In this document: piece after piece, positions 1 through 14,323 of the stretch | Position numbering within the stretch: position 1 is the first letter of the stretch | Layout of the letters: every line of letters starts with the position of its first letter | Source: Bacteroides mediterraneensis | GTDB lineage: Bacteria; Bacteroidota; Bacteroidia; Bacteroidales; Bacteroidaceae | Direction: 5' to 3' | Length of the DNA stretch: 64,000 bases | Assembly: GCF_016900355.1 (NCBI RefSeq) | Contig: NZ_JACJKA010000002.1 | Coordinates: 1 to 64,000 of the forward strand | Notes under the pieces: model-generated | What the model saw: the letters and a program-made list of their open reading frames with translations, nothing else | Told to the model about the DNA's origin: nothing | The model's database searches: none | Program-made: the position numbers and the translations under genes

Positions 1-3000
1 ATACTTAATATATAACTGTTTGTCTATATCCGAAACACTGTTATTCCAATTAATATCAGATCTTCCCGTGAAATTTTGCAATGGGATGAACTGGAACTTA
101 TCAGGAGAAAGATTTATAGAAGATACTGCCAGCATTAATAAAAATCTGGCAAAACGAGTTTGAATATATTTATATTCATTTTCAACAATAGACTTATCTT
201 CCGAAGCACCAATAATCAAATAGGAATCTGTACAAACATCATTTGGCCCTATAATTTCTGTCCTTGAAACGATTCTGAATTGGCCGTTTTTATCAGGCTC
301 ACCAGCATGCTCAGCTGTTACTTTGCTCATAAGAATCTTGTATTTAGAAAGTAGTTGATTTGAAGCTAAAACAGCAGTTTTAGGAAGCCATGATACCCCT
401 TCGCTTGATATTAAACGAAGATCTCCAGATTTATCGCCTCTAATATTTGATGATAAGCCAAATGGATTACGTGTGCTTACTATGGAGGCAAAGGTTTTAT
501 CTGATTGACATTTCTGAATTATATGGATAGCTGGATTATAGCGGATGAATACTGCAAACTGATCTAATGGGCGTGATACAGTATCACGTAATAATCCTTG
601 GACAGTTGTAATCGAACAATCTCCATGGTGATTAGCATCCCATAATATGTAATTTACACCTCCACCAATACTTGATGTTGGGAAACAATCCTTTGCATTT
701 ATATAATCGAAAATATAACGAATTCGTTTATCAGACAACATATTCGCTCTAAATGAGTCCAACCCTTTACCTCCCGCAAACCATCTAGAAGGCATAATCA
801 TAGAAATGTATGTTGGATTTATAAGTTTAGCTATTTCAACAAATAAGTTATAAACAGGTTTTGCACTGACGCCAGCACCTCCATCCATAATTTGATATGG
901 TGGATTTCCCACTATCGCATTGAATTTCATATTGTCATTATCTATGGCTTTCCAGTAAGAATGACCTTTGGCAACTTTGGTTATAAAGTTTTCCGGCTTG
1001 TTCTTAATCTGGTTGATTAAATCTTCAAAATATCTTGTATTCACTTTTGCTTTACGGAATCCGGCAAGCGTACGTTTGGTAATGCTCTTTGCCATTGGAG
1101 TCTTACAGATGACAAAGATGTTTTCAGCTATGACCTTGTCCCATACAGTCTGCTGCTCCTCTATCGTTTCTACAGCGAACAGAGAAGCCTTCACTCTGGC
1201 TCGGTAAATGCCGTATGCCATATAAAGCGGATAAAGTCCGGATTTGGAATTGATCTCCAGAATACGGGATTCAGGGGAGAAAACTTCTGCGGTAACTTCT
1301 CCTTTGTCTATAAACCGTGGTTCAGAAATTACATTCTGATACTCTGTGTCATAGAAGTTATAGCCTCCCAAACAGTCACCGAGGTGCATGTTTACCACGC
1401 GCCACGGAGTAAGTACCGTTTCCTTGTCCGGATTACGGAACGTACTGAAGATGTCCGTAATTCGTTCGATTCGTTCCTCTATACTCAGTTTGTCCGCGGC
1501 ACGTGCCATCGCACGGATTCGTTTTCCAGCGGCACAGAATATTTCCGGGTCATAGTATTTTTTGAAGCTGTTGAATTTCTGCTTGGTCACTCCCTTGGGC
1601 ATGAACTCTTCCCATGACTGCGGGTCAATGAGCGAGGCAAAATTATCAATCGTGATTTCCTGATTTTCATCACTCAGTTCCGCACCATAAATCAACAGTG
1701 GCATACGGATGGAGATGCCTCGGAGTATGGAAATGGCAGCCTCCCGGTTCTTTGTCTTCTTTTTCAACTCTTCTAGCCGTTTCCGCTCATCCTCCGTAAG
1801 TTCCTTCTTGGGTTTCTTCTCCAGTTTCTCCTTTTCCTCGTATTCCTCATTGTTCAGGCCTTGACTGTTGATGTCCACTTGGTTGGTCTTGGGCATGGCT
1901 CTGGTCTGGCCGATGATCTTTTTCAGATTATCGAACTCCTGTAGTTCCAGATCATCCAGTTTCATCAGCTCATCGTTATAAAGGCTGTTGTCCTCAAACC
2001 CGTTACGGACGACACGTTCCACATATACCCGTTTCAACTGTTCCAGCATACGGGGTACATCAAAGCGGTTCATCTGTGAGCCCTCAACAGATATGATAGG
2101 ACAGAAATTGATAAACTCACCCATAGCCTTACGGTCGCTTTGTGAAGTTTTTCCGGCTTTGGACGATATTTTGGCTGTTTCGGCAATCACTTTCAGGGTA
2201 CGGTCCGGAGCAAAATCAAAAACGTAGCACTGCTCCTTCATTCGTCCGTTGATGGTGGCGGGTGTCTGTACGCGAAAGATGGTCTGCATATAACTGGATG
2301 CGGCTGTATTATAAGAACCGGACAACATGAATACAGCGGTCCATGCCTTTACACTCACTCCGGTCGTCAGCCGTCCGCAAGAAAGGGTAATGGTCCGTGT
2401 GGCATCCGGATCTTTTCCGATAGCCTGTTCCACGGCTTCCAGGGCATCACGGCTCTCCTCGTCCTGATCACCGTCACCGGCTACATTGACCACCTTGAAA
2501 TGCTGGAACGCCGGATGTGTCTGGAGCATGGCACTCAGTGCCCGTGCTTCCTTCACGCCTGGCACCATCCAGAGGGTATGGCGGAAAATATTCCGATATT
2601 CCTCGTTGGCATATGGATAAAGGCTGTCCTTGTCCTCCTTGGTAAGAAGATTCAGAAAAGCCCGCACGTCTTTTTCATGACAAAAACTGCCGGATTCATT
2701 GACCCTGAAAAATTCCTTGAAATTAAAGGCAACATCTTCATCTACAAATTCATGAAGCAGCCGTCCCAAATCGTAGGTATAGATATTGAGTGTAGGCAAT
2801 GAGGCATACGGATTGGGATCACCAAAATGGAGTTCGTCCCAGCTCACCTTGGCCCGCTGTTCCATCACATAGTCCCATGTATAAATTTCATCCTCCTTAA
2901 AATCATCCAGCAGGTTAAATGGAGTACCTGACAGACGCAATACTTTGGTCTGTTCCTTGACCAGCTCTCCCATAACCGCTTTACCCAGTTCGGTCTGGGT

Positions 3001-3867
3001 GCCTTCGTGCGCTTCATCAACGATAATCAGGTCCCAATCGGTAGCAAATACTTCGTTGTTTTTGTCGAAGTTGCCACCAACAAGTTCAGAACCACGCAAA
3101 TCCTGCATGGATGCAAAATAGACATAATGCAATCCGTGGCTTTCTGCCTGCCGTTCAAGACTGCTGTAACTTTCCCCGTTGTTCTTGGAACCGTATGCAA
3201 AATCCTTGCGGTCGTAAAATATCTTACCGAAATCCTCAAACCATCCGGCATCCACCACAGGACGATGAGTCAGAATCAGGATACGCTGAAACTCCATATC
3301 CTTGACAACCTGCAGGGCAGAAAGGGTCTTTCCAAAACGCATCTTTGCGTTCCAGAGCATCTGGTTGCCTTTCTTAAACTGCTTCTTGGTCTTGTTGATG
3401 GCTTCCTGCTGTTCCGGTCGGAATACAATCGGGGAATGTTCCCGGGTAACTTCGGCAGATGAAAGGGAACTCCGGCCTTCCTTGACAGCCGCAATGGCAC
3501 GCTTGACGGTTTCCAGATCGGTGATGAACCATTCATTGGCTTTGTTAACCGTATCGAAGACTTTCTTTTTGATACCGGAGCGTTCCAGAACATTGTGTAC
3601 CTCCTTGTCGTTGAATGAACGGAGTCCGCCACGGTTGTAAACGGTCAGTTCCGTATATAGCAGATCGTATGCGATGCCTGCCGTCTGTGTGTATTGGTTG
3701 ATACGCTTTCTTGCCGCTTCATTGAGCGCCTTGCTGTTGGGAGACAGACCGAACACGTTTTCATCCTCACAGGTTGCCTCACCAACCTTCAGGCATCCAC
3801 GGTGTGCCGCATCATTGATACGGAACACATAGATCAGTTTTAGTTTCAGGGACGATGTGAATCTCAT
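1..3867 (-). CDS. Fused restriction-modification protein: GIY-YIG-like N-terminus, DEAH helicase, N6-adenine methylase (partial, 3' end outside window)
   Basis: The minus-strand frame starting at 3867 stays open for 1289 codons to base 1, so the C-terminus is outside the window. Residues 11-32 (IYVF...LKVGEA) resemble a GIY-YIG/T5orf172 nuclease start. A Walker A-like AKMRFGKT (174-181), VDEAH (283-287) and a QTIFRVQTP motif VI (528-536) mark an SF2 helicase/translocase. A RILEIN segment (868-873) resembles methylase motif I, and GNPPYQ (N at 988) is the N6-adenine methylase catalytic motif IV. By family this is a single-chain restriction-modification enzyme of the Eco57I/helicase-methylase kind that cuts foreign DNA and methylates its own. 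The start overlaps the stop of the upstream 344-residue gene (ATGA), so the two are translationally coupled. Domain calls for the helicase and methylase are firm; the GIY-YIG call is moderate. Confidence 0.82.
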   Translation of the reverse strand, partial: MRFTSSLKLKLIYVFRINDAAHRGCLKVGEATCEDENVFGLSPNSKALNEAARKRINQYTQTAGIAYDLLYTELTVYNRGGLRSFNDKEVHNVLERSGIKKKVFDTVNKANEWFITDLETVKRAIAAVKEGRSSLSSAEVTREHSPIVFRPEQQEAINKTKKQFKKGNQMLWNAKMRFGKTLSALQVVKDMEFQRILILTHRPVVDAGWFEDFGKIFYDRKDFAYGSKNNGESYSSLERQAESHGLHYVYFASMQDLRGSELVGGNFDKNNEVFATDWDLIIVDEAHEGTQTELGKAVMGELVKEQTKVLRLSGTPFNLLDDFKEDEIYTWDYVMEQRAKVSWDELHFGDPNPYASLPTLNIYTYDLGRLLHEFVDEDVAFNFKEFFRVNESGSFCHEKDVRAFLNLLTKEDKDSLYPYANEEYRNIFRHTLWMVPGVKEARALSAMLQTHPAFQHFKVVNVAGDGDQDEESRDALEAVEQAIGKDPDATRTITLSCGRLTTGVSVKAWTAVFMLSGSYNTAASSYMQTIFRVQTPATINGRMKEQCYVFDFAPDRTLKVIAETAKISSKAGKTSQSDRKAMGEFINFCPIISVEGSQMNRFDVPRMLEQLKRVYVERVVRNGFEDNSLYNDELMKLDDLELQEFDNLKKIIGQTRAMPKTNQVDINSQGLNNEEYEEKEKLEKKPKKELTEDERKRLEELKKKTKNREAAISILRGISIRMPLLIYGAELSDENQEITIDNFASLIDPQSWEEFMPKGVTKQKFNSFKKYYDPEIFCAAGKRIRAMARAADKLSIEERIERITDIFSTFRNPDKETVLTPWRVVNMHLGDCLGGYNFYDTEYQNVISEPRFIDKGEVTAEVFSPESRILEINSKSGLYPLYMAYGIYRARVKASLFAVETIEEQQTVWDKVIAENIFVICKTPMAKSITKRTLAGFRKAKVNTRYFEDLINQIKNKPENFITKVAKGHSYWKAIDNDNMKFNAIVGNPPYQIMDGGAGVSAKPVYNLFVEIAKLINPTYISMIMPSRWFAGGKGLDSFRANMLSDKRIRYIFDYINAKDCFPTSSIGGGVNYILWDANHHGDCSITTVQGLLRDTVSRPLDQFAVFIRYNPAIHIIQKCQSDKTFASIVSTRNPFGLSSNIRGDKSGDLRLISSEGVSWLPKTAVLASNQLLSKYKILMSKVTAEHAGEPDKNGQFRIVSRTEIIGPNDVCTDSYLIIGASEDKSIVENEYKYIQTRFARFLLMLAVSSINLSPDKFQFIPLQNFTGRSDINWNNSVSDIDKQLYIKY

Positions 3868-4898
3868 GCTTCTTCATTTATGAGGTTGATAAATCGGATT
3901 CGTTTCCCCTTTTTGCCTGTTGCCTTGTCTGTAGTCCGCCAGTCCTTGATGATGCAGTAAATTCCGTTATGCTTGGTCAGGTCATTTTTCAGACAGCCCT
4001 CGCACGGTTCCCGTCTTTCAATCGTACCGAACAGGCCCGGTTCCATTCGCACACGTTCTCCGCAACTGTCCGGAACAACACCTTTCAGTCCGTCCATCTG
4101 CCATACATTCCAGGAGATGATATAGGCTATATGGTTGATGGATTTAATTTGCGGATCTTTACCGAACTTGTTCCGGTAATATTCGATGAAGGATAAGAGA
4201 AGGGCTTCACGGGCAAGAAGAAGACTGTCGCCCTGCCATTCATAGGCATAGATGCTTCTGTAAGCATCCTTGGCTGCCTCCAGCCATTCACGCGTTGTCG
4301 TAGTATTCTCACTGACAATACGGAGCTTACGGTCAAGCAGGCCGATACGTTTCTCCACGGGAATGAATGTTCCGGTAGTCGTATCATACCTGCTTACCAG
4401 ATAAGGAGCTTCTCCACAGGTGATCTCCAACCGGTTTTCCCGTACATAGTCTTTCCATGTCCTGCCTTCAGGAAAAGCAATCTTATCCGGATTGATTTCC
4501 CATGAATGTGTACCGTCTTTGGATGTCACTTCATGGTTAAATACATCCTTTCTGCCAAACCAGGCTTCATCGATAAGGTTGTTTTGGGCATTACATATCC
4601 AGGACGGAGTAAATACCTCCGCCATTTCCCGAGAACGTGTGCTTTGGGTATCCCTGTGTTTCAGAACACGGGGCATGACCACATGCCCGTTCTTTCCGGT
4701 TATCAACTCTGGGAGAATCTGTGACCCGTATTCATAACCTTTGCCGAGCTGTTCATAATCGGAAGTAGCCCAGAATATATTACACTGTTTTCCTTCCTTA
4801 CTCGTTGTATGATCTTTGAGCAAGGTATTCAGTAAGTCGGGTGAAAGTTCTTTCAGCCTGTTCTCCTGTATGTCGGCTTCTCCGGTTGTTTTCTCCAT
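3864..4898 (-). CDS. Restriction-modification subunit, methylase-like (RM subunit M family)
   Basis: 344 residues. It has a REMAEVFTP segment (91-98), which resembles methylase motif X, and LEITCGEAPYL (157-167), which resembles a SAM-binding motif I; YEWQGDSLLLARE follows near 219-231. This layout matches proteins annotated as restriction endonuclease subunit M in Bacteroides elements. No (D/N)PP(Y/F) catalytic motif is visible, so it may bind SAM or DNA as a partner and leave catalysis to the NPPY-bearing large protein, with which it overlaps by ATGA. It is the first gene of the leftward R-M operon. Its only visible promoter lies inside the inverted-repeat segment 4946-5124, about 75 bp upstream of the ATG. 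The family assignment is fairly sure; the precise biochemical role is inference. Confidence 0.72.
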   Translation of the reverse strand: MEKTTGEADIQENRLKELSPDLLNTLLKDHTTSKEGKQCNIFWATSDYEQLGKGYEYGSQILPELITGKNGHVVMPRVLKHRDTQSTRSREMAEVFTPSWICNAQNNLIDEAWFGRKDVFNHEVTSKDGTHSWEINPDKIAFPEGRTWKDYVRENRLEITCGEAPYLVSRYDTTTGTFIPVEKRIGLLDRKLRIVSENTTTTREWLEAAKDAYRSIYAYEWQGDSLLLAREALLLSFIEYYRNKFGKDPQIKSINHIAYIISWNVWQMDGLKGVVPDSCGERVRMEPGLFGTIERREPCEGCLKNDLTKHNGIYCIIKDWRTTDKATGKKGKRIRFINLINEEA

Positions 4899-4945
4899 CT
4901 TTTTTCTGTGCGTAAAGGGGATGAGAAAGTCCCGATGTCTGCGTC

Positions 4946-5124
4946 TTTCTTAGACAGAGGGACTCACTCTTGTGCAAAGTTATACATTTTATTGAAAATC
5001 CTGCAATTTCAACCGTTGGATTTTCATCCGGAAGTCATTGAAATTCAACTGTTGTTTAGCAATTCTACATATAATTCATCGGCAAATCAGCCTTATAGTC
5101 CAAAATCTCCCTCTGTCTAAGAAA
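4946..5124. repeat. Candidate invertible promoter segment bounded by perfect 17-bp inverted repeats
   Basis: The arms are TTTCTTAGACAGAGGGA at 4946-4962 and its exact reverse complement at 5108-5124, enclosing 145 bp. Identity stops abruptly on both sides of each arm. The segment sits between the R-M operon start (4898) and the 3' end of a tyrosine recombinase gene (5154). The enclosed DNA holds a good Bacteroidetes promoter pointing left into the R-M genes. This is the usual layout of Bacteroides invertible promoters (invertons), so inversion is expected to switch the R-M operon off. In the orientation given here the operon is ON. Inversion itself cannot be seen from one sequence. Confidence 0.8.
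4975..5006 (-). promoter_or_regulatory. Promoter of the R-M operon, inside the invertible segment
   Basis: On the minus strand, TAACTTTG (4975-4982) matches the Bacteroidetes -7 consensus TAnnTTTG and a TTG -33 element lies at 5004-5006, with 21 bp between. Transcription would start near 4970 and run through the left repeat arm into the ATG at 4898. I saw no comparable TAnnTTTG on the plus strand of this segment, so inversion would leave the R-M genes without this promoter. Confidence 0.7.
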
Positions 5125-5153
5125 TGAATGCTTTTGCTAAACGTTCTCCAATC

Positions 5154-6356
5154 CTACAGACTTTTCAGAATTTGTGCGTTGGCTTTGTCCACTACGGAGT
5201 TATCCAATGAGGCCAGATAAATTTGTGTGGTTGCCTCGGAATCATGTCCCATTCCTTCACTGATAACTGAAATCGGAATGTTCTTGCCTTTGGCTGCGCT
5301 TGCCCATGAATGACGGGCACAGTACATGCTAAGAGGAACGGATATATCGGCCAGTCTGGCTATTTCTTTCAGGTTTCGGTTTATTCCGGACATGACATTC
5401 CTGTAATGCTTGTGCGTATCCTTAAAAGGATATTTCAATACCGGCAAAAGATAAGGACTGAGATTGTCTTCCGGGTATTTGCCGACAATTTCCTGCATAC
5501 ATTTTTCCCACCTGATGACCAGCTGCTGCCCGGTCTTTCGTCTGCGATACGATAAGAAGCCGTTCTGAAGATCTTTCTTTTTCAGGTGAGCCATATCTAT
5601 GAACGACATGCCACGGGTATAGAAGCTGAACAGGAACATGTCCCTTGCAAATTCCAGATTAGGCTGTAAGGACAGGTCCAGATTCTTCATACGCTTGATG
5701 GCGGATAAGGGAACGGCACGTTTGACGGTCTTGTCCACTCCCGTATAGACATGCCTGAAAGGATTACGCTGTTCCATCAGTTCCTTTTCCAAGGCACGGT
5801 TATATACCGCCCGAAGGATACGCATGTAGAATGAACTGGTATTCCGTACGGCACCTTTCCCATGAAGGTAGGCTTCATAAAACTGCATCAAGTCCGAATC
5901 AATTTCTGACAGCAGAACATCCCTGTCCCCCCTAAACTGCATGAAACTTTTCAGAGTACAGGAATAATTTTCAGCCGTGCGTATCTTGCCCATCTGTTTT
6001 AGACGGGCTATGATGCCTTGCATGAAGTTGAAAAACGACTGTCCCTCTGTATTGCTTTGAAAAGAAGCGACAATATCATCTGCTGTATATCCGGCTTTCC
6101 GGTTATCCAGTTGTCGGATAATCATGTCCAGCCGCTTCAAGTCCCACTCCATGCGTTCCTGCAAGGAAAGGAGCAGATTACTTCGTTCTGAACTACCGGC
6201 AATGATACAGCTTCCAGCTTCGTTCCATTCATCTGTAAATATCCGGTAATACGTCTTTAACTGACGGATTACACGGCTCTGGATAATCTGATAATAGATG
6301 GTACCTTCCTTTCCTTCTATGGTGGAAGGTCTGAATTTCACTTTAACACTGGCCAT
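5154..6356 (-). CDS. Tyrosine recombinase, probable DNA invertase
   Basis: 400 residues with an N-terminal SAM-like core-binding domain and a C-terminal catalytic domain. Visible catalytic residues are R248 (YTRGMSF), K274 (RRRKTG), R348-H349 (CARHSWAS), H371 (GMGHDSE) and Y380 (IYLAS). The usual first His of the HxxR box is Tyr345, a variant I associate with Bacteroidales site-specific invertases, as is the ending GMGHDSE...IYLASLDNSV. The gene ends 30 bp from the 17-bp inverted repeat that flanks the R-M promoter, so it is the obvious candidate to flip it. It begins only 4 bp after the upstream mobilization gene, so it is probably the last gene of the mobilization operon. A role in integration is less likely because the element has a separate CTn-type integrase. 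Confidence 0.85.
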   Translation of the reverse strand: MASVKVKFRPSTIEGKEGTIYYQIIQSRVIRQLKTYYRIFTDEWNEAGSCIIAGSSERSNLLLSLQERMEWDLKRLDMIIRQLDNRKAGYTADDIVASFQSNTEGQSFFNFMQGIIARLKQMGKIRTAENYSCTLKSFMQFRGDRDVLLSEIDSDLMQFYEAYLHGKGAVRNTSSFYMRILRAVYNRALEKELMEQRNPFRHVYTGVDKTVKRAVPLSAIKRMKNLDLSLQPNLEFARDMFLFSFYTRGMSFIDMAHLKKKDLQNGFLSYRRRKTGQQLVIRWEKCMQEIVGKYPEDNLSPYLLPVLKYPFKDTHKHYRNVMSGINRNLKEIARLADISVPLSMYCARHSWASAAKGKNIPISVISEGMGHDSEATTQIYLASLDNSVVDKANAQILKSL

Positions 6357-6360
6357 GGGC

Positions 6361-7128
6361 TTACTTTTTAGGTCCGTCCGTAATAGACTTGTCCTTGATG
6401 GACTTCGCCTTGCTGTCCAGTTCTCTCGCGGCCTGTTCCTTCAGCCGTGCCTGCTCGGTCAGGGTGGCCTGTCTCTGTACCGCTTCCTCGTAGGCTTCCA
6501 CGTCCTCACGCATTTGTTCTATCCGTTCGTTGTTCCGGTTCGGTCCAAAGAGTTTCTCAAGTTCCACAAGTTGTTCTGGGGTAACCTCTCCTTTCATCTT
6601 GACATAACGATATTTCAGATCATTATCGGCCTGCATGTTATCTGCCCTCACCGAAAAATAGAGAGCCACGGACAGAATCACGATTGTCACGAACATCACG
6701 AAAAAACTCCCAAGAGTGTACGGGGATTCTACACTCAGGCTGAAATGATGGTTGATTTTGCTTGTCTTGACGGCATTCTTTCTGATTGTGTCATTGGTCT
6801 CACAAAACAAGGCTTCCACTTTCTCCTGGTGCTGCCGCTGTTCATTACACATTTCCGACAAGACCTGTCCAAGTCTTTCCTGTGACGAGTTCTTCCTGTC
6901 CATGGAAACCATATCGTTCTTGATGGCGGCAAGACCCTCGCACATGCGAGCCAACAATTTGCGAAATGTCTCATGACCATTCCGGACTTCATTCAGCACG
7001 GACTCATCCTTTTCATTGTTAACTGTCGGGCTATTACCTTCCAGCAAGGGAGCAGACAGCCCGTTGATTTTGTTTTCGATTCTTTCCAGACATCCGAAGA
7101 TGCTCTCGATATATTCTTCCAATTTCAT
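6361..7128 (-). CDS. Mobilization-associated membrane protein with coiled coils
   Basis: 255 residues. The first ~135 are charged and helix-prone, one clear transmembrane segment lies at about 140-160 (FFVMFVTIVILSVALYF), and residues ~180-250 form a Lys/Glu-rich coiled coil. I recognise no enzymatic motif. Its place directly after the relaxase gene (49-bp gap) and before the invertase (4-bp gap) matches accessory genes of Bacteroides mobilizable elements. It could link the relaxosome to the membrane or to the helper conjugation machinery, but this is inferred only from position and topology. Confidence 0.6.
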   Translation of the reverse strand: MKLEEYIESIFGCLERIENKINGLSAPLLEGNSPTVNNEKDESVLNEVRNGHETFRKLLARMCEGLAAIKNDMVSMDRKNSSQERLGQVLSEMCNEQRQHQEKVEALFCETNDTIRKNAVKTSKINHHFSLSVESPYTLGSFFVMFVTIVILSVALYFSVRADNMQADNDLKYRYVKMKGEVTPEQLVELEKLFGPNRNNERIEQMREDVEAYEEAVQRQATLTEQARLKEQAARELDSKAKSIKDKSITDGPKK

Positions 7129-7177: not shown

Positions 7178-8107
7178 CTACAATCCGAATCCTTTCCTCT
7201 TTTGTTTCTTCTTCCTGCGTCTGCACAAGAGTTCTTCCTGAGGTAACGGCTCTTCGGGAGCGGTGCCGTTTGTCGGGCTGAACAGTCCCGGTCCCGTACC
7301 TTCGAGAAGAAGTCCTCCGTCCGGTATCCTTTGTAGTACCTTCCGTTCGGATTCCTGTTGGGATTCCGAAGGCTTCCAACTCAATTGGGCATTCAGCCTG
7401 GCAAAGCTGAACTCCCGGCTGATCTGTGAAGCCTTGAAGGTCTGCCCGTCCTTGGTGAACCGGATTCCCTGTATGTCCTCCGGCTTTTTTATCTCCATGG
7501 TACGTTTTACAAATTCCAGCCTGATACCCCGGCGAAGCAGGTAATCGTTGAACTCTTTCCATGTTTTGGAATGCTTCAAAGCTGCCTTGACGGCATTGAA
7601 AATTTCGTATTTCACACGCTCCGAAGCATGGAGCTTCTCCACATTAGTCTTGCCCTTGCCCTCCGCATATGTCAGCCCGTACTTGTCCTTAAGCAATTTT
7701 GTTACGATTTCATTACGCTTGTAATCGCCTTGGGAAGAGATTACCTTGCCGTCATATCCGATGCGGTTATAGACCAGATGGCAGTGCGGATTGTCCGTAT
7801 TATGGTGTCTTACCAGAATAAACTGAGTGTTTTTTATCCCCATCAGCTCCATGTATTCCCAGGCTATTTTAGCCATAAATTCATCTGTCAGCAATGCCTT
7901 ATCCTCAGGCTTGAAGCTCAATGCGATGTGTCCGACAGGCTGTTTTATCTTCGGATTAAGCTCATATTGGTAGTTGAAACTGTCCGTTATTTCCCGGATA
8001 TTTCCCAGTAATATGCCATCTGAGTCGATGATTTCCGCGTTGTCCTTGCCCATCACGTAGCGGATACAGCCTCCGAAGGATTTCCCTTTCTTGATCTTTC
8101 CAATCAT
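7178..8107 (-). CDS. Relaxase / mobilization nuclease (MobA/VirD2-like)
   Basis: 309 residues. The N-terminus (MIGKIKKGKSFGGCIRYV) and the metal-binding HHNTDNPHCH (101-110, an HxD...HxH three-histidine motif) are typical of Bacteroides MOB relaxases. The enzyme nicks oriT on one strand, stays attached through a tyrosine (Y17 or a nearby residue is a candidate) and pilots the DNA through a helper conjugation system. The C-terminus is basic (RRRKKKQKRKG). The start overlaps the stop of the MobC-like gene (ATGA), indicating translational coupling. No conjugation (tra) genes are visible, so the element is mobilizable rather than self-transmissible as far as this window shows. Confidence 0.92.
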   Translation of the reverse strand: MIGKIKKGKSFGGCIRYVMGKDNAEIIDSDGILLGNIREITDSFNYQYELNPKIKQPVGHIALSFKPEDKALLTDEFMAKIAWEYMELMGIKNTQFILVRHHNTDNPHCHLVYNRIGYDGKVISSQGDYKRNEIVTKLLKDKYGLTYAEGKGKTNVEKLHASERVKYEIFNAVKAALKHSKTWKEFNDYLLRRGIRLEFVKRTMEIKKPEDIQGIRFTKDGQTFKASQISREFSFARLNAQLSWKPSESQQESERKVLQRIPDGGLLLEGTGPGLFSPTNGTAPEEPLPQEELLCRRRKKKQKRKGFGL

Positions 8108-8478
8108 GACGGCCTCCTTTCTCCTTGCCTGTACTGGACGATAATCTCCTTGAGTTTCTGCAGGAGTTCCGTCACCGTCTTTTGGGTACGGTGGAACCCG
8201 GCCTGATGGGACAGACGGGTCAGCTGATTCAGGTTGTTTGCCATACCCGTAAGGCTGCGTATGACGGCAGTTTCCTCGGCAGAGTGTCTGGCCGTTATCG
8301 TCGTCTCAAAGGCTGATACGCGGAGAAATTCCGCCAGCGTGAGGTTAGCCTGTCTGCTGCGTCGGCATAGCCGTTCATAGTCTATCTTGGAGAATTTCAC
8401 TGTAACGGCTTTGCTGAGTTTGCACACTCCGCTTACTTTGGGGCGTCCTCTCGGTCTGTTTTTCTTTTTGTCATTCAT
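8104..8478 (-). CDS. Mobilization accessory protein, MobC-like
   Basis: About 124 residues if the ATG at 8478 (MNDKKKNRPRGRPK) is used; an in-frame ATG at 8529 would add 17 residues of low-complexity sequence, so I prefer the inner start. The AT-hook-like RPRGRPK start, the VTVKFSKIDYERL ribbon-helix-helix-like stretch and the conserved MANNLNQLTRLSHQAG helix match the bacterial mobilization protein (MobC) family. Such proteins bind near oriT, help open it and recruit the relaxase. The gene is coupled to the relaxase gene by ATGA, and the hairpin-rich candidate oriT lies just upstream. Confidence 0.85.
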   Translation of the reverse strand: MNDKKKNRPRGRPKVSGVCKLSKAVTVKFSKIDYERLCRRSRQANLTLAEFLRVSAFETTITARHSAEETAVIRSLTGMANNLNQLTRLSHQAGFHRTQKTVTELLQKLKEIIVQYRQGERRPS

Positions 8479-8543
8479 ATTTTCTTCGTTTGATTTTTGA
8501 TTATTCTTTTTCTCACAATCTGCGACCACCGGGAGCTGATTGT

Positions 8544-8702: not shown

Positions 8703-9167
8703 TCACAGTTTTCTCCACTGCTCGAAGTCTTCCGAGTAGATTTCAAGATGCTGCCGGGCGATGTTTTCAAGCAGTCCTGAAACGCTCATTTTACGTCCTC
8801 CCAACCTGCGGACAAACTCGTCCAGCCTGTCACGTACCTCACCGCTAACAAACACGGGCTTACGGTCTTCGATTCTCGGGACCTGAAGAAAGGCTTTCCT
8901 ATATCCCTCCAGAGAAAGTTTTCTCTGCCTGCTGCTTATACGTCGCTGAAATGCGGAAACAGCTTCCTCTTTTCCAGTTGATGGTTGTTGGAACTCGGAT
9001 GTGGTGTCGGTCTGTTCTACCGTTCCTTCTGACTTCTCTTTTCCGGTATCATTCAAGGATAATTCACGGGCTGTTTCAATACTGCCATCTGACGGGAGTA
9101 TGAGTGACATGTCCGTACCTGTCATGGTCTCCCATTCTTCTTTGGTCAATTTCTTTTTTGTTGCCAT
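8703..9167 (-). CDS. DUF3408 domain-containing protein
   Basis: 154 residues. The first ~75 are polar and low-complexity; the C-terminal half (VFVSGEVRDRLDEFVRRLGGRKMSVSG, then ENIARQHLEIYSEDFEQW) is the DUF3408 pattern found next to mobilization and transfer genes in Bacteroides integrative elements. The fold resembles a ribbon-helix-helix DNA-binding unit and could act in segregation, oriT binding or regulation, but no function is established that I can name. It is transcribed in the same direction as mobC, on the other side of the candidate oriT. Confidence 0.8.
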   Translation of the reverse strand: MATKKKLTKEEWETMTGTDMSLILPSDGSIETARELSLNDTGKEKSEGTVEQTDTTSEFQQPSTGKEEAVSAFQRRISSRQRKLSLEGYRKAFLQVPRIEDRKPVFVSGEVRDRLDEFVRRLGGRKMSVSGLLENIARQHLEIYSEDFEQWRKL

Positions 9168-10641: not shown

Positions 10642-11406
10642 ATGAGTATAGAATCGGCTAATAAAATAGATCTTCTGCTACGAATGGGGACAAAAAACGG
10701 CCTTTACTTTTCAGAATGGCTGAAAAAAAACGGATATTCGGATCAGCTGATAAGCAAATATAGGCAATCAGGATGGTTGACTTCATTGGCAAAAGGTGTT
10801 GTATATCGAACTGGTGATAAGTTATCCGCGTATGCCGCTGTGTCATGTTATAATAACCAACTGAACAGGCAACTGCGTGTGGCAGCCCATTCCGCTTTGG
10901 AATTGTTTGGGTTCAACCACTATGTCCCGATGGGAAAACCAGTTCTGATGGTGGCATATTCAGGGATAAGTATTCCCAAATGGATGAATGCCGATTATTT
11001 TGACAGAACAATAAAACCGTTTGAAACGAATATGTTTACCACAATTCAGACTTCGACTGTTAAAGTGGAAGGAGTAAACCTACTTGTCTCTTCTCCGGAA
11101 CAGGCTTTCATGGAATGCATGTTGCTTGCCCCCGACCGATATGGCTATATGGATTTATATTATATTATGGAACAGCTGACGTCACTTCGTGCAGATGTTG
11201 TTCAGACCCTGCTGGAAACAATAAAAAATCTACGAGTAAAGCGTATGTTCCTTTATATGGCTGAGAAAGCCGGTCACTATTGGTTCGAAATGCTGGACAT
11301 GGTGAAAATAGACATAGGAACATCCAAATTGCAACTGGTGGAAAACGGTATATATATAAGTAAGTATAAAATAACTGTGCCTAAAGAATTGTTTGATTAT
11401 GAATGA
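10642..11406 (+). CDS. abiEi: AbiEi-type antitoxin (type IV toxin-antitoxin)
   Basis: 254 residues. An N-terminal winged-helix region (about 15-60: FSEWLKKNGYSDQLISKYRQSGWL, then LAKGVVYRTGD) is followed by the AbiEi C-terminal domain, including the SPEQAFMECMLLAPDRYGYMDLYY region near 152-175. In this family the antitoxin neutralises the nucleotidyltransferase AbiEii without stable binding and represses the operon. It overlaps the downstream toxin gene by a few codons and has an inverted-repeat operator upstream. It probably stabilises the element and may give abortive infection against phage. Confidence 0.85.
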   Translation: MSIESANKIDLLLRMGTKNGLYFSEWLKKNGYSDQLISKYRQSGWLTSLAKGVVYRTGDKLSAYAAVSCYNNQLNRQLRVAAHSALELFGFNHYVPMGKPVLMVAYSGISIPKWMNADYFDRTIKPFETNMFTTIQTSTVKVEGVNLLVSSPEQAFMECMLLAPDRYGYMDLYYIMEQLTSLRADVVQTLLETIKNLRVKRMFLYMAEKAGHYWFEMLDMVKIDIGTSKLQLVENGIYISKYKITVPKELFDYE

Positions 11407-12307
11407 ACTATATAAAAAACAGGTGGCACTGTTGATACGTATTATGCCCTCTGTTTATCGTATCAAGGATTTTGCCGTACATGGCGGTACGGCCATAAAC
11501 CTCTTTCACAAGAATATGCCTCGCTATTCGGTTGACATTGACCTGACATATATTCCTGTGCAAGGAAGGGAGGAAAGTCTCAAAACTATAAAAAGCCATC
11601 TTGAAACGCTGAAAGGATATATCGAGAAATCCATACCCGGAATCAAGGTTATTCCCAAATATGATGTATGGAAATTGCAGTGTACATTGAATGGTGCAAC
11701 TGTAAAAATAGAAGTGAATGGTACTAAAAGGGGCATTATAGGAAGTACAGAGGAGAGAATGCTTTGCGAGAGATCCCAACAGGAATTCAGTATGGCATGT
11801 AAAGCCCGCACTGTGTCATATTCCCAATTATATGGAGGTAAGATTGCGGCTGCATTAAGTCGTCAGCATCCCAGAGATTTGTTTGACTGTAAATACATGG
11901 ATTTGTCTTCATTTGATGATGTCAAAGCCGGTTTTATTCTTTGTTTGCTCGGCAGTGATAAACCGATAATAGAGTCTTTGCAGCCGAACCCGATTGATCA
12001 AAGTGAAGCTCTTGAAAAACAGTTTAAAGGAATGTCTGATGTAGAGTTCAACTATTCAGATTATGAAGAAGCGCGGAAAAATCTGATCGCTTTAGTCAAT
12101 GACGCTTTAACCGATACAGACAGGGAGTTCTTACTATCCTTTGAGGATGGTACACCTGACTGGAGTAAATGCTGTGCTGGAGATCTGAGCGGATATCCAT
12201 CCGTAAAATGGAAACTTCAGAATATTGCAAAATTGAAAAAGGAGAATCTGGAGAAACACCGTCTTGGCATAGATAAGTTACGACAATTCTTTGAGAGTAC
12301 AAAGTAA
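11393..12307 (+). CDS. abiEii: AbiEii-type nucleotidyltransferase toxin
   Basis: 304 residues, or 302 from the second ATG at 11399. The nucleotidyltransferase core is plain: HGGTAINLF (about 30-38), then RYSVDIDLTY (45-54) with the catalytic DxD, then VKIEVNGTKRG with the third acidic residue (about 104-110) and YGGKIAAALSRQHPRDLFD (about 146-164). AbiEii/AbiGii toxins transfer nucleotides to tRNA or other targets and stop growth. The start lies inside the end of abiEi, as in other abiE operons, giving coupled translation. The gene looks intact. Confidence 0.88.
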   Translation: MIMNELYKKQVALLIRIMPSVYRIKDFAVHGGTAINLFHKNMPRYSVDIDLTYIPVQGREESLKTIKSHLETLKGYIEKSIPGIKVIPKYDVWKLQCTLNGATVKIEVNGTKRGIIGSTEERMLCERSQQEFSMACKARTVSYSQLYGGKIAAALSRQHPRDLFDCKYMDLSSFDDVKAGFILCLLGSDKPIIESLQPNPIDQSEALEKQFKGMSDVEFNYSDYEEARKNLIALVNDALTDTDREFLLSFEDGTPDWSKCCAGDLSGYPSVKWKLQNIAKLKKENLEKHRLGIDKLRQFFESTK

Positions 12308-12764: not shown

Positions 12765-14006
12765 CTATAAACGAGAAAGATTGCCTGAAAGTACATCCCT
12801 TACATTGTTCATATCTTTTAGAATGGAACTGTCGAGTACCCTTGCATAGTGCTGTGTCATCTTGATATTGGAGTGACCGAGCATTTTGGCTACATTCTCA
12901 ATACTTACCCCATTGGCCAAACAGACAGATGTAGCATACGAGTGACGGGCAGTGTGTGTGGTCAGGTTCTTCTTTATCTGGCACAAGTCGGCAATCTCTT
13001 TCAGGTAGCTGTTCATCTTCTGATTGCAGGGAACAGGCAGCAATACTCCTTTCTTTTTGCAGGCAGGATAATCTGCATATTTTCTCAGGATTTCCAAAGG
13101 AATATCCAGCAGCGGAATATTACACATGTTCTTTGTTTTCTGACGTGGCTTCCTGATCCACAGATTTCCGTTGTTGTCTTTTACGATATGCTCAGGAGAA
13201 AGTTGTTGTACGTCAATGAAAGCCAGACCGGTAAAGGCGGCGAAAATAAAAACATCACGGACTACGGTGATTCGCTCCAGAGGAAACTCCTTGTGGTAGA
13301 TGGTCAGCAGTTCATCCATGCTAAGAAACTCACGGATTACTTCTTTTTCGTGGAATTTGATACCGATAAACGGGTCTTTGGCTATCCATTCATTGGCCAG
13401 TGCCAGATTGGTAATCTTCTTCAGACATTTCATATAACGGATGACGGTATTCTGCTGACATTCCTTTTCCGTCTTCAGATAAAATTCAAAGGCACGTACC
13501 AGCTCACCGTTGACTTCCGCCAGCGGCAGATCATCCTTTCCGTATTTCTGTCTGATAAGTTCGGCAAGATAGCGTTTGCAGCTTTCATAACGGCGAACGG
13601 TAATCAGGGCATAGTCTTTACCGACCAGGGCACGGCATTGGTCATTGTGCTCCTGCATGGTACTGATGAGGGTGCGTACCGCTTCCGGTTCTTTGTCCTG
13701 TCCGAAAAATATTTCCTGTAACAGACGTGCCGTTATAGGCTGGTTCTGTTCTTCCAGCTCACAAAAAATCTGATGTAACTTGATTTTCGCATTTTCGATG
13801 TAGGCATTCAGGTCGCATGATTTGCGGCTTTTGCCTCTGGCAGATTCCTTTGCCTGACTCCAGAGAGACGGGTCAATGCTCTTGCGGATGTTGTTTTCAA
13901 CTCGCGTACCATCTACTGTGATACGCATACAAACGGATGCTTCTCCGTTTTTCAGCAGCTTGGTCTTCTTCAAGAAGAAAAGCACATTGAATGAACTTCT
14001 TTTCAT
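12765..14006 (-). CDS. Tyrosine integrase of the Bacteroides conjugative-transposon type
   Basis: About 413 residues from MKRSSFNVLFFLKKTKLLKNG, the family's usual start; a further ATG at 14033 would add 9 residues. There is an Arm-binding domain (~1-95), a SAM-like core-binding domain (~100-210) and a catalytic domain with HTARHSYAT (HxxRH) and LGHSNIKMTQHYARV (H and nucleophilic Tyr). The first catalytic Arg is missing: TGLAFIDV has Ala in its place, as also known for IntDOT-like enzymes. It integrates and excises the element by recombination between attachment sites. The gene lies 245 bp from the 3' end of tRNA-Phe, with repeated arm-type sites between, so that tRNA is the likely target. 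Confidence 0.93.
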   Translation of the reverse strand: MKRSSFNVLFFLKKTKLLKNGEASVCMRITVDGTRVENNIRKSIDPSLWSQAKESARGKSRKSCDLNAYIENAKIKLHQIFCELEEQNQPITARLLQEIFFGQDKEPEAVRTLISTMQEHNDQCRALVGKDYALITVRRYESCKRYLAELIRQKYGKDDLPLAEVNGELVRAFEFYLKTEKECQQNTVIRYMKCLKKITNLALANEWIAKDPFIGIKFHEKEVIREFLSMDELLTIYHKEFPLERITVVRDVFIFAAFTGLAFIDVQQLSPEHIVKDNNGNLWIRKPRQKTKNMCNIPLLDIPLEILRKYADYPACKKKGVLLPVPCNQKMNSYLKEIADLCQIKKNLTTHTARHSYATSVCLANGVSIENVAKMLGHSNIKMTQHYARVLDSSILKDMNNVRDVLSGNLSRL

Positions 14007-14114
14007 TTTTCCTACAGTTTTTAGTTTATACAAAAGTAGGAAACCGTCCCCGTTTTCTTGCTATGCAAAATATTGACAATCAGTGAAAAAGAGCCTAATT
14101 CGGTGAAGATTTTT

Positions 14115-14226: not shown

Positions 14227-14250
14227 ACTCTCTTTTGCTTTTCTTCAAAG

Positions 14251-14323
14251 TGGTGCCACCAGGAATCGAACCGGGGACACAAGGATTTTCAGTCCTTTGC
14301 TCTACCATCTGAGCTATGGCACC
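14251..14323 (-). tRNA. tRNA-Phe (GAA), element-proximal copy
   Basis: The minus strand folds into a 73-nt cloverleaf: acceptor GGTGCCA/TGGCACC, D arm GCTC/GAGC, anticodon arm AAGGA-CTGAAAA-TCCTT (anticodon GAA), T loop TTCGATT, discriminator A and no encoded CCA. The T stem CCCGG/CCTGG has a C-T mismatch in its middle. The 3' end faces the mobile element and its integrase, the orientation expected if this tRNA is the attachment site. Bacteroides mobilizable units such as NBU1 are known to use tRNA 3' ends. Confidence 0.95.

Follow-up and report, generated by a model that had tools for sequence, protein, structure and literature searches.

Organisation of the locus

The window examined here is a stretch of 64,000 nucleotides of Bacteroides mediterraneensis (assembly GCF_016900355.1, contig NZ_JACJKA010000002.1, positions 1 to 64,000 of the forward strand), and this work concerns a short segment bounded by inverted repeats which lies between two predicted restriction-modification (R-M) genes and a tyrosine recombinase gene, all on the minus strand. 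The segment spans 179 bp including its arms (4946..5124, assigned to no strand) and is bounded by a left, cargo-side arm, TTTCTTAGACAGAGGGA (4946..4962, plus strand), and a right, recombinase-side arm (5108..5124, minus strand), recognised by repeat comparison; the arms are 17 nt each and 100% complementary, 145 nt lie between them, and the outer edge of the left arm is where homology ends when loci with two different cargoes (A and B, see below) are compared. No open reading frame (ORF) of at least 80 aa was found inside 4946-5124, and the segment is thus non-coding. It holds a predicted promoter on the minus strand (4975..5006), composed of TTG (5006-5004), a 21-bp spacer and TAACTTTG (4982-4975), which aims at the R-M genes and stands 76 bp from the ATG at 4898; we take this arrangement to be a Bacteroides-type promoter, going by the -33/-7 consensus of Bacteroides promoters.

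The recombinase (5154..6356, minus strand, 400 aa), the likely invertase of the segment, has its stop codon (ORF low end 5154) 29 bp from the right arm. It matches Pfam SAM_5 and integrase models and, weakly, an Arm domain; the tyrosine-recombinase catalytic residues R248, K274, R348, H371 and Y380 are all present, with Y345 occupying a position that is usually His. In NCBIfam the tyrosine-type DNA invertase models (e.g., cluster 3b) were unmatched, and the only matches, which fell far short of the cut-offs, were to XerA/XerC/XerD, PRK00283 and integron models. An initial annotation of the same DNA had claimed perfect 17-bp inverted repeats enclosing 145 bp, a leftward TTG-21 bp-TAACTTTG promoter before the first R-M gene and a tyrosine recombinase ending close to the right repeat, and all three were confirmed at the positions and distances given here.

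The first R-M gene (3864..4898, minus strand) encodes a 344-aa predicted methyltransferase-type partner (PADLOC MTase_II PDLC03390, E=2e-119) for which no Pfam match was found. The second (1..3867, minus strand; at least 1289 aa) is incomplete because the contig starts at base 1 of the window; its protein matches Pfam Eco57I (E=4e-32) and ResIII (E=5e-14) as well as the PADLOC Type IIG and Type II models, so that the N6-adenine methylase and helicase domains of a Type II (G-like) R-M system are present, while no Pfam nuclease domain was matched and a PDB search by sequence gave 0 matches. In this large protein, residues 1-900 are 92-97% identical in relatives and the part from about 1000 on is 27-45% identical, with DNA homology to the relatives ending around window positions 765-892, within the gene. 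The C-terminal region, which probably serves target recognition, appears to have been exchanged between elements, judging from these alignments, as such a divergence would be expected if target recognition is exchanged. With a constant R-M core and a differing C-terminal specificity region, each flip of the segment would add or remove a different methylation pattern.

Orientation of the segment in related genomes

A 256-bp query covering the switch was run against 399 genomes of the family and 393 of the order, one per species, so the orientation counts below refer to assemblies and not to cells, and near-copies among them are not independent. Apart from the window, the family search yielded seven loci in six genomes; the order search yielded four loci in three genomes, two of these loci being on the contigs of L096 and L098. 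A scan of genome_contigs found L096 and L098 as well and added L088, and the combined total is 12 distinct loci besides the window. At 12/12 of them the segment lies on the strand opposite to its flanks, with the promoter facing the recombinase (OFF), while in the window it faces the R-M genes (ON). The initial annotation had listed the lack of a reversed orientation in related genomes among the results that would speak against its proposal, and the proposal withstands this test: all other window-type loci display the reversed orientation, and it is also seen as an exact inversion between L128 (Bacteroidaceae bacterium IMSAGC_004) and L129 (Bacteroides nordii JCM 12987). These two loci align over 7651 + 5128 bp with 7 + 4 mismatches (11 over 12.8 kb) and one gap (99.9% identical), and one block of 192 bp, made up of the arms and what lies between them, matches at 100% identity in the opposite strand; their R-M system is of the window type, with proteins 71-73% identical.

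Comparison of the 13 window-type interiors shows 29 variable columns among 145: 0/32 in the promoter, 1/12 between box and arm, and 28/101 behind the promoter (Fisher p=1.9e-4). A fixed difference or an assembly artefact as the origin of the two orientations is rejected on this comparison together with the L128/L129 inversion.

In one further genome (G607), the same R-M system (L189 9343-14578) is flanked by chromosomal genes and follows directly after one of them, with the arms decayed and with no recombinase match in the fetched 19.9 kb. A stretch of 27 nt around the TAACTTTG box is unchanged there and faces the R-M genes, the spacer to TTG being one base shorter; the locus is read, from its sequence, as a locked-ON form that may be ancestor or derivative alike. 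Both the promoter position and this box, fixed in the same direction before the same R-M system, support the ON orientation proposed for the window. Another locus, L097, was considered as ON and then withdrawn, as its segment reads like those of the other cassettes of cargo class C, with the box TAATTTCG facing the recombinase.

A family of recombinase-plus-switch cassettes

Relatives of the recombinase were drawn from 61 genomes of the genus and from genome_contigs (the best 80 of 183 confirmed), and the count covers the 93 loci whose sequence extends 260 bp or more beyond the recombinase. Of these 93 loci, 73 have an exact repeat pair behind the recombinase (12 bp or longer, span 150-230, start within 130 bp of the recombinase), in comparison with 4 of 2178 control windows from the same loci; this control, together with the relatives, rules out a chance repeat. 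Many arms read TCTCTT-N3/4-AAGAGA, a partial palindrome, and the exact repeat-pair pattern gave 0 matches in viral_contigs. By position of the promoter box, 63 of the 73 loci are OFF, 6 are ON and 4 are unreadable; for those with R-M cargo the figures are 38 OFF, 3 ON (the window, L099 and L129) and 1 unreadable, so that 38/41 readable loci are OFF.

The 20 loci that lack such a pair include L100, L117, L119, L138, L142, G293_C1b and G237/G284. In G237/G284 (L081, L082), a more distant relative, arms of 26-30 bp start about 355 bp downstream; of the two genomes, one has the promoter box facing the cargo and the other has it facing the recombinase. In Leyella lascolaii khD1 (L100) the recombinase is cut short and neither a repeat pair nor R-M genes stand behind it, as in a decayed copy.

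Cargo types and exchange

Four cargo architectures were typed by Pfam and then followed by BLAST, with loci assigned by best tblastn hit (of the cargo proteins fetched, 10 were analysed with PADLOC and 50 with Pfam). Cargo A, that of the window, combines the 344-aa protein with ResIII/Eco57I (15 loci, plus one G715 locus); cargo B combines PLD-SNF2 with Eco57I (4 loci, of which L112 at 35% and L138 at 25% are weak, plus one G715 locus); cargo C holds MmeI-like, Eco57I and T5orf172/ResIII proteins (13 loci), and cargo D is Type ISP (8 loci). R-M status was assigned to L138 by the helicase alone and to L112 by a PADLOC methyltransferase. Additionally, L099 carries a Type III methyltransferase and nuclease, L123 a Type III nuclease and L142 a Type III methyltransferase. 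Over 121 aa, the N-terminus of the window's second R-M protein shares 26% identity (E=3e-15) with the cargo C protein that carries T5orf172, and the solved relatives of a cargo D protein (L069:3501-8531) are the lactococcal Type ISP enzymes LlaGI/LlaBIII (PDB 5ffj, 4xqk). In Bacteroides xylanisolvens XB1A (L110) the class C cargo is apparently in pieces after ORF calling.

R-M cargo stands behind 18 of the 19 recombinases at least 94% identical to that of the window, 32 of the 37 at least 66% identical, and 45 of 89 loci overall; recombinases in the closest group stand before three R-M architectures. On the recombinase tree the window belongs to a clade of 18 rows (100/98) in which 17 rows carry R-M systems (types A, B, C and III), and the R-M label changes 14 times on the tree versus 29.3 in shuffles. 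For the 73 loci with both sides available, R-M cargo occurs with an upstream relaxase in 31 and alone in 7, while other cargo occurs with a relaxase in 4 and alone in 31 (Fisher p=1e-9, the loci not being independent).

Exchange can be followed on both sides of the unit. G293 and L088 have the mob genes, recombinase and switch in common with the window, and homology ends at the outer edge of the cargo-side arm, behind which cargo B follows; G041, G140 and G315:C35 have recombinase, switch and R-M genes as in the window and different mob genes upstream. Such breakpoints suggest that the cargo-side arm is the place of cargo exchange. Several cassettes can also share a genome: Phocaeicola faecicola AGMB03916 (G315) has four R-M cassettes (two A, one C and one D), and P. 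faecalis AGMB00274 has cargo B and D (L088, L120).

Among the cargoes other than R-M are fimbrillin, dynamin-like, SrfB, Hsp70-like and MotA/ExbB proteins. For example, SrfB, dynamin-like and Hsp70-like operons lie behind related switches at L083 (2400-8304), L077 (3721-7136), L118, L148 and L161, and a MotA/ExbB-domain protein does so at L163 (10197-11744), in what might be a Zorya-like defence operon.

Proposed mechanism and alternatives

We consider it probable (roughly 0.87) that the 179-bp segment with its predicted promoter, likely flipped by the recombinase 29 bp away, would switch the adjacent predicted R-M operon on and off. What can be read directly in the sequences is the repeats, the promoter box and its invariance, both orientations, the constant place beside the recombinase, and the different R-M systems behind closely related recombinases. 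In the mechanism we propose, the recombinase would exchange the two arms and so invert the segment; with the segment ON, transcription would begin roughly 70 nt ahead of the first R-M gene, and with the segment OFF the promoter would be directed at the 3' end of the recombinase gene. Cells bearing the element would differ in restriction and methylation by state and, as the initial annotation proposed, would alternate between a protected and a DNA-receptive condition. Recombinase and switch together would form a portable control unit for exchangeable R-M systems.

Several observations weigh against this reading. Under the criteria used, 20/93 loci are without a repeat pair, three of them with R-M cargo (L138, L142 and G293_C1b, the last having an 11-bp pair, below the 12-bp threshold), and the L100 recombinase is 98% identical over 352 aa, yet has neither repeat nor R-M cargo beside it. 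Recombinases 96-97% identical adjoin different arms (TTTCTTAGACAGAGGGA, TCTAYGTAAGAG), which requires either degenerate recognition or the use of other sites. The class C cassettes have the divergent box TAATTTCG, in the wider family 44/89 loci carry other or unidentified cargo, and the evidence for both states comes from assemblies of different genomes. Finally, as a limit that the initial annotation did not mention, no minus-strand terminator-like site was found in 4700-6700, and with none between recombinase and R-M genes read-through may bypass the switch.

This last point leads to the alternative that the switch is real and has little effect on R-M, which we regard as unlikely. The genes all run in one direction, and the R-M genes might be expressed in either state by an outside promoter or by read-through that comes from the mob-recombinase genes; however, the promoter box is invariant in 13 cassettes, and in G607 it has been kept, facing the R-M genes, where no recombinase match was found. 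It is rather improbable, too, that the segment inverts by the action of another recombinase in trans, while the neighbouring one serves the mobile element, e.g., as its integrase. Bacteroides is known to have master invertases that act in trans (PMC5903667), and a first look at the window's own genome gave about 20 weaker candidate places for the recombinase, one under 1e-60, but a separate integrase sits beside the tRNA-Phe site, the repeat pair stands behind 73/93 recombinase relatives at a near-constant distance, and recombinase and switch stay joined when mob genes or cargo are exchanged. Because this separate integrase lies at tRNA-Phe, the recombinase beside the switch is less likely to be the integrase of the element.

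We hold it very unlikely that the inverted repeats are a relic of past inversion at a locus which no longer switches. A single state (OFF) does prevail among the window-type relatives and most others, which would fit a locked family, but the arms are perfect and the recombinase intact while 29/145 interior columns vary, and L128 and L129 are in different states with just 11 mismatches in 12.8 kb. Least credible of all is an orientation difference produced in assembly at a short inverted repeat: arms of 15-18 bp are within the k-mer range of short-read assembly so that the consensus drawn from a mixture may show one state or the other (in which case both states must exist), but the 12 loci from many assemblies agree, and those of G323 and G715 lie in single contigs of 3.8 and 3.1 Mb.

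Going beyond the inversion itself, we tentatively propose, at a little under even chances, that recombinase and invertible promoter may form a portable, OFF-biased docking unit of Bacteroidales mobilizable elements, in which R-M or other defence operons would be swapped at the switch arm; an element would enter an unmethylated host silent, establish without self-restriction, and later switch on in part of the population. If this were true, strains with several elements, such as P. faecicola AGMB03916 with its four R-M cassettes, would generate states of immunity and epigenome in a combinatorial manner, and the mostly silent-looking methyltransferases on Bacteroides mobile elements would be accounted for.

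Relation to known systems

Invertible promoters and phase-variable R-M are each already known. In Mycoplasma pulmonis, a member of another phylum, DNA inversion likewise regulates an R-M system (hsd); the genes there are of Type I, and the inversion reportedly shuffles hsdS as well. The promoter invertons of Bacteroidales (capsule, the large-capsule locus with Tsr19, fimbriae) likewise have short inverted repeats, an outward promoter and an adjacent tyrosine recombinase, whereas in the window the cargo is R-M and the cassette is on a likely mobilizable element. The large-capsule switch is OFF in all three published B. fragilis genomes (PMC3090145). The IP-ARG loci, antibiotic-resistance operons with invertible promoters (PMC8748976), are alike in their near-identical local invertases, exchangeable cargo and spread on mobile elements among Bacteroidales, and differ in that their cargo is resistance and glycan genes on integrative and conjugative elements (ICEs); in the available part of that text no R-M cargo is named, and 'restriction' occurs once, in another sense. 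In the hsdS shufflon of B. fragilis (PMC3090145, PMC11892184), site-specific inversion beside a tyrosine recombinase likewise alters R-M, here a phase-variable Type I system, and the group 145 invertons described there (PMC11892184) are also near relaxase and MobC genes; that inversion rearranges the hsdS coding sequence and changes specificity, whereas the non-coding promoter segment of the window would give ON and OFF states. A coding inversion of the hsdS type is ruled out at the window, as the segment is non-coding and upstream of the operon.

In the parts available to us of PMC8748976, PMC11892184, PMC3090145, PMC10333322, PMC10939037, PMC12632263, PMC11868660 and PMC5903667, no description of R-M operons under an invertible promoter on mobilizable elements was found, although the supplements of Jiang 2019 and Ben-Assa 2020 could contain such loci. 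A methylome survey of the Bacteroides fragilis group (PMC10333322) showed that methyltransferase genes outnumber methylated motifs and that many methyltransferases of mobile elements seem functionally silent, with invertible promoters as one suggested cause. The cassette family offers a concrete, testable mechanism for this, as R-M operons on likely mobilizable elements are OFF in 38/41 readable assemblies and one inversion from expression. Reversible immunity and DNA methylation would follow from such cassettes beside different predicted R-M systems, a point relevant to the coexistence of phages and hosts, to the barriers that gene transfer and transformation meet, and to the entry of R-M genes into an unmethylated host.

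Probable mobile-element context

The cassette is likely carried on an integrative mobilizable element at tRNA-Phe, as judged from the neighbouring genes. Upstream of the recombinase lie, all on the minus strand, a 255-aa ORF (6361..7128) with only a sub-threshold Pfam match to DUF6381, a MobA/VirD2-like relaxase (7178..8107; PF03432, E=3e-32, with NCBIfam MobB/TraI below their cut-offs), a NikA/MobC-like relaxosome protein (8104..8529; PF21983, PF05713), a DUF3408 protein (8703..9167; PF11888, E=2e-27) and a second tyrosine recombinase assigned by Pfam (12765..14033), the likely integrase of the element, which adjoins the tRNA-Phe gene (14250..14323, minus strand), the putative integration site. 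The initial annotation had placed the R-M operon on a mobile element, and this is supported by the relaxase, the MobA-like protein, the integrase beside tRNA-Phe and att-like repeats in a relative. A plasmid megablast with 3864-6356 gave no match.

The far end of the element lies past the contig start in the window, and att-like direct repeats were read in the relative G323, where the 3' end of tRNA-Phe occurs twice, at 212844 and at 230626 (a distance of about 17.8 kb), one copy being beyond the R-M genes and the other at the intact tRNA. The ends of the element are not settled to the base because the G323 repeat also covers sequence beside the tRNA; the repeats take in downstream terminator-like sequence, which suggests tandem insertions at the tRNA. 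Repeats of the tRNA-Phe 3' end are seen at the far end of the element in L192 (18718-18863) and L035 (292). Beyond tRNA-Phe in the window, the ORFs look, by eye, like ordinary chromosomal genes, and on the same likely element an AbiEi/AbiEii pair (Type IV toxin-antitoxin / abortive infection) is present at 10642-12307.

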